DNA from: a virus
Direction: 5' to 3' (one strand)
IMG/VR virus record: IMGVR_UViG_3300049483_000049
Span: 1-26,389 of that record
DNA: 26,389 bases
The translations under genes and the position numbers were made by a program. The notes beneath the pieces were generated by a model, which ran no database searches, was not told where the DNA came from, and saw nothing but the letters and a program-made list of their open reading frames with translations. Of the stretch, positions 7,252-9,734 are shown one piece after another (position 1 is the first letter of the stretch; each line of letters starts with the position of its first letter).

Positions 7252-7264
7252 GTGTCCTCCAGTT

Positions 7265-7442
7265 CGTTTCGTCCTTACGGACTCATCAGGCAAGCGGGGT
7301 GGGCACTGACAAGACGGCTACGCTAGCGTGCTCGGATTCTGGATAGATGGTGCTCCAGCGGAGTCCACTGTCGGCGCGTTGTACCGACTGGCAACCTTTA
7401 CGGTTAGCTCCGTCGTACTCGCCCACCCCTTAGCTTGCTACG
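7265..7442 (-). ncRNA. Hammerhead self-cleaving ribozyme (type III layout, extended stem I)
   Basis: Read on the minus strand. The core is CUGAUGA (7289-7283), stem II GUCC-GUAA-GGAC (7282-7271), then GAAA (7270-7267). The third core strand, GUA (7441-7439), lies upstream. Predicted cleavage is after A7439. Stem I follows the cut directly: GCAAGC (7438-7433) pairs with GCUUGC (7295-7290). A UAA bulge (7432-7430) comes next, then GGGGUGGGC (7429-7421) pairing with GCCCACCCC (7304-7296). All essential core bases of the known family are present. A bulge on stem I plus a GUAA loop on stem II suits the loop-loop contact that natural hammerheads need. Stem III is short: A-U plus two G-C pairs, then mismatches. 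A 116-nt insertion caps stem I. Cleavage would leave the early mRNA with a 5' hydroxyl. Confidence 0.9.
7305..7420 (-). other. Structured insertion capping ribozyme stem I
   Basis: The 116 nt between the two stem I arms can fold further. GACGG (7414-7410) pairs with CCGUC (7317-7313), extending the stem. AACC and GGUU form a hairpin with a GUAAA loop (7405-7393). CUGGA and UCCAG form a 5-bp stem with a 10-nt loop (7358-7339). ACGCTAGCGT (7320-7329) is a perfect palindrome. No coding potential is convincing. It could be a ligand or protein sensor, or simply a long stem; nothing identifies a ligand. Confidence 0.6.
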
Positions 7443-7630
7443 GGTTGACGGGAGGAAGCTGGCTCGGTTGTCGCGTTGTCGGCGTACTGCTGCCGCCATG
7501 GCATCCGCTTTCGCGGTAGTCTGTTCGCCATGGGTTCGCTTTGCTGCTATCCCGTTCCCTTTATTGCCAGCATGTTGATCCGCATCTGTCCCGTAGGCTC
7601 TTGCGGTCGCTGTGGTGAGCGGCTTTGCGT

Positions 7631-8063: not shown

Positions 8064-8083
8064 GGTTGGGGAGGCTGTAGCAA
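8054..8083 (-). promoter_or_regulatory. Weak sigma70-like promoter candidate, leftward
   Basis: On the minus strand TTGCTA (8083-8078), an 18-bp spacer and TACACT (8059-8054) each match consensus at four of six positions. It overlaps the rightward promoter, so polymerase could use only one at a time. It would place the ribozyme about 600 nt into the leftward transcript. Confidence is low because both boxes are imperfect. Confidence 0.3.
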
Positions 8084-8121
8084 GGATCGTGCCAACGAGC
8101 ACTGTTGCAGATTGGAACGCG

Positions 8122-8264
8122 CTAGGATCGCTCAGGACGGGCGACCAGCGGCGCGATCAGGGGCGCGATTTCGGGCTGTAACGCGGTGCGCCGCAACGAG
8201 TTGAACAAAGGCTGGACAGTGCACAGAGGTCCTCGGCCTAGTGCGGGGGTCCACGCGATCCTAG
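8122..8264 (+). repeat. 10-bp perfect inverted repeat in the rightward leader
   Basis: CTAGGATCGC (8122-8131) is the exact reverse complement of GCGATCCTAG (8255-8264), 123 bp apart. In RNA it would close a large multi-hairpin domain. Between the arms GGCGCGAT-like sequence occurs twice (about 8150-8169). Confidence 0.4.
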
Positions 8265-8345
8265 GGCAAGTGTGGAAGCGTGGCGCGAAATGGCGTAAGT
8301 CATTGGCGCGCAAGCGCTTGGCGGGAAATGCACCCTGAGTGTAGG

Positions 8346-8730: not shown

Positions 8731-9433
8731 GACATCAAAGTTCGACTCAATAGAGAAGGCCAAAGAGTATATCCTCGCTCATCCCGATGAATCCAAGATG
8801 GAGCAGGCCGTAGCCACAGGCTTCGGAGATCGTACGATTGCCCGAGCCCGGGCAGAACTCGTCTATGAGGGAAAACTCGCGCCCTCCCGGAAGAAGGTAG
8901 CGCCTGCGAAGGATGCACCTTCTCCCCCGGCATCAGTAGCACCAGAAGCGGAGCCCGCTGGACCGCCCGCGCCGGAGTCTACGGCCCCCGGACCGGCCCC
9001 TACTGGCGGGCTCCTTGATAACCTCGCGATGCAGCAACTAGCTAACCTGATCGACACTGCTGCCTCTGAGGAAGACGACACCACAGTCCACAAGCGCCTA
9101 CTCAAACAGTGTCTACTCTTCGCCTTCGATACTCGCCTGCACCCTGACACTCGTATGTCGGCCTCGCAGATGTGGTCCAAGCTCAGGGACCAATCCAAGG
9201 CGAGGGAGCTAGGGCCGGGTAAGCCGAAGACACGCGCTGACGCCGTGGTCCGTCTACGTGACATGAACGCTGCTGTTGGGGTCAGCATCTGGTTCGAGGC
9301 TGGCATCGCAGCTTTCGGTGTCCCCACTCTCATCCAGTTCTTGACTGACCTGCAAAAGGAGCCAGCCGATGCCACAGAAGTTGACGAAGCTGCGCCTCCT
9401 CGGCCATCTGAGGAAGCTCCTAGCGCGTCCTGA
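8723..9433 (+). CDS. Probable small terminase subunit
   Basis: 236 residues, ATG at 8723 overlapping the previous gene. Residues about 5-52 look like a helix-turn-helix unit (KAKEYILAHPDESKMEQAVA, then GFGDRTIARARAELVYEGKL). A long Pro/Ala-rich linker covers about 53-95, and a helical body with LLKQCLLFAFDTRLHPDTRM follows at about 125-145. An N-terminal DNA-binding unit, a linker and a helical body placed at the start of the virion gene series fit TerS, which recognises the packaging site and feeds DNA to the large terminase. The sequence similarity is weak; it could also be a transcription regulator. About 2.3 kb separates it from TerL. Confidence 0.55.
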   Translation: MAKTSKFDSIEKAKEYILAHPDESKMEQAVATGFGDRTIARARAELVYEGKLAPSRKKVAPAKDAPSPPASVAPEAEPAGPPAPESTAPGPAPTGGLLDNLAMQQLANLIDTAASEEDDTTVHKRLLKQCLLFAFDTRLHPDTRMSASQMWSKLRDQSKARELGPGKPKTRADAVVRLRDMNAAVGVSIWFEAGIAAFGVPTLIQFLTDLQKEPADATEVDEAAPPRPSEEAPSAS

Positions 9434-9734
9434 TACACGCGTCATCAACCGCCGACTGAAGACCTGTGGACACTCAACATGGGACTACGACACTGAGTCC
9501 GGTGAGATCACGAACATCACCATCTACGTTGACTTCCGTCGTGACGGTCGCGTACGCCTCGTCCTCCACGAACTGCTCCATATGCTCATGAAGCTCGATT
9601 CAAGCATGGTCTACGAACTTGAAGAGAGCGCCATCCTCGCATGGGAGTCTCTCATCTACTCATGGTTACACGACTCGAAACGAGCAAAGGAACTGGAGTC
9701 TTGGGATAAGGCCATAGAAAGGAAGATGCGATGA
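9369..9734 (+). CDS. Small HExxH metallopeptidase-like protein
   Basis: 121 residues. ATG at 9369 follows AAAGGAGCCAGCCG, so it begins inside the end of the probable TerS gene and overlaps it by 65 nt. HELLH at residues 67-71 (context RVRLVLHELLHMLMKLDSS) is the zinc-binding signature of zincin peptidases, and downstream LEESAILAWESLIY (84-97) offers a Glu as possible third ligand. The N-terminal part is basic, followed by beta strands (ITNITIYVDFRRDG). Known small SprT-like and phage zincins are either peptidases or inactive scaffolds. Target unknown; prohead processing or host protein cleavage are guesses. Confidence 0.6.
   Translation: MPQKLTKLRLLGHLRKLLARPDTRVINRRLKTCGHSTWDYDTESGEITNITIYVDFRRDGRVRLVLHELLHMLMKLDSSMVYELEESAILAWESLIYSWLHDSKRAKELESWDKAIERKMR

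Follow-up and report, generated by a model that had tools for sequence, protein, structure and literature searches.

The hammerhead and its place in the window

The window, a virus record of 26,389 bases, carries on its minus strand a complete type III hammerhead (7442-7265). The leftward operon begins immediately after it, with a gene whose protein of 56 residues has no Pfam or PHROG match (Table 1). By sequence, the CUGANGA core, the GAAA, the three stems and the NUH triplet that define the structure are all present, and their order (GUA, stem I, CUGAUGA, stem II, GAAA, with the ends in stem III) corresponds to the type III permutation. Stem I consists of 6 bp, a UAA bulge and 9 further bp and, with the insert that caps it, forms a domain of 149 nt; a fold z of about -2.9 was obtained for a 149-base stretch offset by one base from this domain. 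Stem III has two pairs (C-G and G-C) beyond U16.1-A15.1, and its shortness could result in a slow ribozyme. An earlier note on this DNA had assigned a hammerhead to the operon's 5' leader, and its coordinates and predicted cut site proved exact to the base on re-reading the sequence; two features were absent from it, the shortness of stem III and the 116-nt insert within stem I.

Table 1. Positions of the ribozyme parts, the leader elements and the first gene in the window, followed by sites in relatives
Feature	Position	Strand	Basis or remark
sigma54-type promoter TTGGCACGATCCTTGC	8080..8095	-	TGGCACG-N4-TTGC (-24/-12), 0 mismatches
Leader hairpin CCGCA-A-GAGCCUACGGGACA-GA-UGCGG	7580..7606	-	copy of repeated leader motif
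UCCUCC, complementary to Shine-Dalgarno, just 5' of cut	7451..7456	-	sequence
Stem III upstream strand C16.3, G16.2, U16.1	7440..7442	-	sequence; NUH register same in all relatives
Cleavage triplet GUA, preceded by C7442	G7441 U7440 A7439	-	sequence
Position 17; predicted cut 7439/7438	A7439	-	sequence
Stem I inner 5' arm GCAAGC	7438-7433	-	sequence
UAA bulge of stem I 5' side	7432-7430	-	sequence
Stem I outer 5' arm GGGGUGGGC	7429-7421	-	sequence, chance test
Structured insert capping stem I, 116 nt	7305..7420	-	multi-branched by prediction
Stem I outer 3' arm GCCCACCCC	7304-7296	-	sequence, chance test
Stem I inner 3' arm GCUUGC	7295-7290	-	sequence, chance test
Catalytic core CUGAUGA	7289-7283	-	sequence, Rfam match
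Stem II GUCC, loop GUAA, GGAC	7282-7279, 7278-7275, 7274-7271	-	sequence, covariation
Core GAAA, then stem III downstream strand	7270-7267, C7266 G7265	-	sequence, covariation
Shine-Dalgarno GGAGG, 4 nt past stem III	7256..7260	-	sequence; RBS adjoins ribozyme in most relatives
First gene of leftward operon, 56 aa	7081..7251	-	without known family
Ribozyme of L144	4961	-	core CCGAAGA (U4C), stems otherwise good
Ribozyme of L140	6037	-	core CUGAACGA (one base extra), stems otherwise good
Ribozyme of L310	4001	-	core CUGAAUGA (one base extra), stems otherwise good
sigma54-type sites, L003	6341, 6450, 6660	-	
sigma54-type sites, L184	8691-9656		
sigma54-type sites, L140	6665-7295		
sigma54-type sites, L141	6641-7259		
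sigma54-type sites, L220	8969-9304		
Hairpin copies, L003	6300, 6152		
Hairpin copies, L129	1687, 1640, 1518	-	
Hairpin copies, L220	9340, 9381, 9503	+	
Hairpin copies, L184; L141; L180	9979; 6344; 1269		

The same note had argued that the stem I pairing cannot be chance. For the chance estimate the 3' arm was held and the 685 bases upstream were randomised under a first-order Markov model in 100,000 rounds, taking as a success a UH followed by at least 6 bp, a bulge and at least 8 bp, together with a stem III of at least 2 bp. An equally good stem I appeared in 1 of the 100,000 shuffles, which upholds the argument; the 6 bp by themselves appear in 8.6% of shuffles, so the significance is held by the distal 9 bp. 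Comparison with the Rfam hammerhead III model, the check that had been proposed, gave a divided outcome. At the gathering cut-off neither the window nor any of eight relatives gave a match, and with no limit on the E-value RF00008, the type III model, matched 7315-7261, that is the 3' half, at 24.8 bits against a gathering cut-off of 48.5, wrongly taking a nearer unpaired GUC as the cleavage strand. Scores of relatives are also under the cut-off (29.5 bits for L129, 25.7 for L003, a compact form, and 19.3 for L220). Both the low score and the wrong strand arise because the profile has no room for a long insert. The sub-threshold score reflects what the profile can capture and does not count against the fold, and long-insert hammerheads escape present RNA profiles.

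Conservation of the ribozyme and exchange of its stem I

Relatives were collected by kin searches with the large terminase, which gave four and later 29 contigs, and with the portal, which gave 80 contigs. At least 14 lineages, the window included, have a type III hammerhead immediately upstream of the gene that opens the leftward operon. By terminase or portal kinship, the carriers are L003/L004, L129 and L148/L149; L274, L304 and L314 are carriers too, as are L284, with a longer stem II, and L144, L140 and L310, with variant cores (Table 1). Moreover, L180, L184 and L220 were found by the pattern of a ribozyme plus ribosome binding site (RBS), with no kinship criterion, and their terminase kinship emerged later. 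The variants of L140, L310 and L144 are candidate slow or condition-dependent ribozymes; low activity is reported for an insertion after A6 (PMC3088659). The first genes 3' of the ribozyme are mostly unlike between lineages, with L184 and L284 starting alike, and therefore the ribozyme goes with its place in the leader and not with a gene. Also, the ribozyme is dispensable, because a close lineage in which the leader is present (L141/L150) and several distant lineages are without it. An alternative ribozyme was sought in L141 with Rfam at E<=1 and gave no match. For the wider surroundings of the group, a phage collection showed no DNA similarity to the window, genome contigs searched for terminase relatives, with the host in question, gave none, and the small protein at 9369-9734 yielded no loci as a query.

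Covariation was evaluated over 15 pairs in 12 condensed sequences, with the inserts removed and L310 left out. Paired cells amount to 96.7%, both-side changes occur in 10 of the 15 pairs, and all measures lie above every shuffle (0/500), with slid-structure controls reaching at most 47% paired. Compensatory changes are seen in all three stems across lineages, with the core intact; it is through such changes that stem I, whose conservation in related phages had been set as a refuting test, is kept. Core, chance test, syntenic relatives and covariation agree, and the element of the window, to judge from these comparisons, is a real type III hammerhead for which cleavage is predicted. That it would instead be an inactive relic, or bear a chance likeness to a hammerhead, could be argued from the short stem III and from the Rfam score under the curated threshold; nonetheless, with compensatory changes in every stem, an intact core, a stem I found so rarely in shuffles and a position held before differing genes, this is extremely improbable.

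The length of stem I is bimodal, with 18-21 nt in eight lineages and 81-149 nt in six. In five of the six long forms there are six pairs, a 5' UA or UAA bulge and at least 8 further pairs; the bulge after the 6 bp is UA in L129, L220, L274 and L304 and UAA in the window, and the five forms carry GUAA, GUUA, GUGA, GCGA and GCGA (G-N-N-A) as stem II loops. According to PMC3088659, contact of the stem II loop with a loop or bulge of stem I leads to activity at physiological Mg2+; if such a contact forms in the window, the UAA bulge would be the probable partner of the GUAA loop.

A comparison of the inserts between relatives, near ones included, reveals no sequence in common. For example, in L129 and L220, with a terminase identity of 81%, the outermost 15 nt at each end of the domain are identical, and nothing detectable is shared between these ends. 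A conserved insert sequence or ligand domain was rejected, nothing being shared beyond these terminal 15 nt. Mapped on the portal tree, lineages with a long stem I are interspersed among compact ones; there are at least 4-5 switches, at least four of them forced by well-supported branches, in a mapping where recombination between portal and leader could also mix the forms. Thus the ribozyme core is retained and the stem I cap exchanged. Among 124 RBS-linked cores, 108 have a compact stem I, and the well-supported long-insert cases are all within this phage group. The insert of L148 (3852-3954, minus strand) contains a GGGUUCGAAGCCC hairpin that resembles the T arm of a tRNA. A tRNA within the insert was considered and rejected, since ARAGORN, run on the window and six relatives, predicts none.

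This kind of ribozyme is already known, and what is new is its group-wide keeping in the leader, often together with a large, exchangeable stem I domain; no report of long-stem type III forms in phage leaders was found in the open-licence literature searched. Across the group, the ribozyme stays at a fixed position in front of genes that mostly differ, and its stem I gets rebuilt repeatedly. The compact, long, core-variant and missing forms make up a natural series for testing leader removal, mRNA stability and translation.

Leader RNA and sigma54-type promoters

Transcription from the sigma54-type promoter of the window would start the leader about 630-640 nt upstream of the cut. In most relatives whose contigs cover the divergent region, sites of this type cluster there, and they are rare in the remainder of the contigs; with this pattern, none was found in L129 and L274. 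The clusters (TGGCACG-N4/5-TTGC or TGCA) occur in both orientations and are nearly confined to the stretch between the terminase and leftward operons. Given these sites, phages of this group may depend on the RpoN of the host. Between the divergent operons there are also repeated conserved blocks, such as CTTGCGCGCCAATGACTTACGCC, in the window (8245-8319, minus strand), L184, L140 and L141, which are possibly activator-binding sites.

The stretch from promoter to cut gave no protein match in relatives. Most leaders contain from one to three or more copies of the motif GAGCCC-loop-GGGACR, to which the leader hairpin of the window belongs. The sense strand of the leaders has 15 copies in 11.9 kb, versus 4 in 350 kb elsewhere. 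The outer stem that flanks the motif varies in sequence from copy to copy, and the flanking pairs sum to 58 Watson-Crick pairs against a shuffled mean of 42.7, with 0 of 500 shuffles as high. Leader blocks are 76-92% identical among some lineages. Because protein matches are absent and the hairpin motif is enriched, the leader itself is probably a structured RNA.

These observations bear on a reading in which the upstream product is what matters, where the leader of ~300-650 nt would act as a noncoding RNA, by binding protein or in an antitermination-like role, and cutting by the hammerhead would make its 3' end and separate it from the mRNA. Enrichment of the motif, its flanking pairing, the similar blocks between lineages and the occurrence of the motif in L141, a lineage without the ribozyme, are all consistent with a functional leader RNA. 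However, the motif does not adjoin the ribozyme, and Rfam at E<=1 finds the hammerhead as the sole family in the leaders, with the hairpin unmatched. Moreover, motif and ribozyme are separable, because L144 and L140 have the ribozyme without the motif and L141 has the motif without the ribozyme. With this evidence on both sides, it is unlikely that the hammerhead serves mainly to finish such an RNA.

Predicted cleavage before the first ribosome site

Stem III overlaps or abuts the Shine-Dalgarno in L140, L129, L180, L314 and L274. In the window, folding models suggest that the UCCUCC may lengthen stem III on its outer side, with pairing that would be lost on cleavage. With a leader of 60 nt, the predicted pairing of the Shine-Dalgarno with the upstream fragment is 0.95, and its unpaired probability would go from 0.01 before to 0.53 after the cut; with 150 nt, the pairing is 0.07 and the change is from 0.41 to 0.53. 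The values for 60 nt, together with the position of stem III in those relatives, would fit a translation switch, in which cutting frees a Shine-Dalgarno held by the pairing of UCCUCC (7456-7451) with GGAGGA and the stem I domain might tune the ribozyme in an aptazyme-like way. Nonetheless, the effect is almost gone with the longer leader, and in most relatives the Shine-Dalgarno pairing is predicted to be unaltered by cutting. A pairing of UCCUCC type to the Shine-Dalgarno is not general among relatives, and the inserts are unrelated, which leaves no common ligand site. A general unmasking of the Shine-Dalgarno holds in part only, for the window in short context, and a switch of this sort is very unlikely.

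The arrangement itself is not particular to this group. In 60 phage type III hammerheads sampled regardless of RBS, an RBS and a start lie within 50 nt downstream in 24, compared with 2-14 of about 60 when other offsets are taken, and therefore the layout is common in phages. The earlier note had considered a link to the first ribosome site of an early operon to be rarely shown, which is fair for experiments but passes over both the abundance of the layout in metagenomic phages and a precedent in the HF1/HF2 haloviruses. In the latter (Perreault et al. 2011, PMC3088659), a hammerhead precedes the first ORF of the early operon by 13 nt, and a 5' end was mapped at most 3 nt from the cut. The window resembles this HHphage in that, in a tailed virus, the ribozyme precedes the first ORF of a polycistronic operon, with a few nt between it and the start codon, whereas the haloviruses have an archaeal host and a variant core with insertions near C3 tied to high salt; a long stem I domain, present in the window, is not mentioned for them in the text consulted.

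The reading preferred here, with a probability of about 0.6, is a leader-removal hammerhead, RiboJ-like, that would give a stable message with a clean ribosome site. The transcript would probably start at the sigma54-type promoter with the noncoding leader first, and the hammerhead at the 3' end of this leader would cut between 7439 and 7438. Cleavage would drop the leader; the ribozyme ends a few nt before the RBS of the first gene. The mRNA would be left with a 5'-OH and with its first base already paired in stem I, as a 5'-terminal hairpin, and the former stem III strand beside the Shine-Dalgarno would become single-stranded. In bacteria, an mRNA that carries a 5'-OH and a hairpin at its 5' terminus decays more slowly by the 5'-end-dependent route. 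By analogy with RiboJ, the likely benefit of cleavage would be stability and insulation, with a ribosome site independent of promoter and leader. A wider proposal, in which a sigma54-type start, a functional GAGCCC/GGGACR leader and stem I as a port for exchangeable domains would form a natural modular leader-release or insulator system, is quite speculative; if true, the exchangeable domains would tune or add function at the 5' end of the message.

The likeness to RiboJ lies in a hammerhead that would take off a leader before the RBS in a bacterial-type 5' UTR, with extra hairpin structure present. The helper hairpin of RiboJ sits after the ribozyme and not within stem I. In contrast to this synthetic device, the element of the window is natural and carries its extra structure inside stem I. 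RiboJ is an engineered insulator made of a hammerhead plus a hairpin (PMC7536230), and in E. coli it raises the transcript about 2-fold and the protein 2-10-fold (PMC6206723). For stem I, the nearest parallel is found in the Clec2 mRNAs, where the discontinuous type III hammerhead has a helix I of 150-1500 nt (Martick et al. 2008, cited after PMC6155905). The window shares with it the type III permutation, a substrate strand remote from the enzyme strand and a very large helix I (149-nt domain). However, the Clec2 form belongs to mammalian 3' UTRs and the window element to the 5' leader of a phage operon, with a predicted cut before the gene; hence it is not a member of that type.

Finally, the element is like the type I, II and III hammerheads of phages and prophages in core, fold and setting, including neighbour genes that change identity (PMC3088659). 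In viral contigs at large (loci L006-L125 and L151-L253), hammerhead cores of types I and III are very common, and metagenomic phage contigs often hold several of them each.
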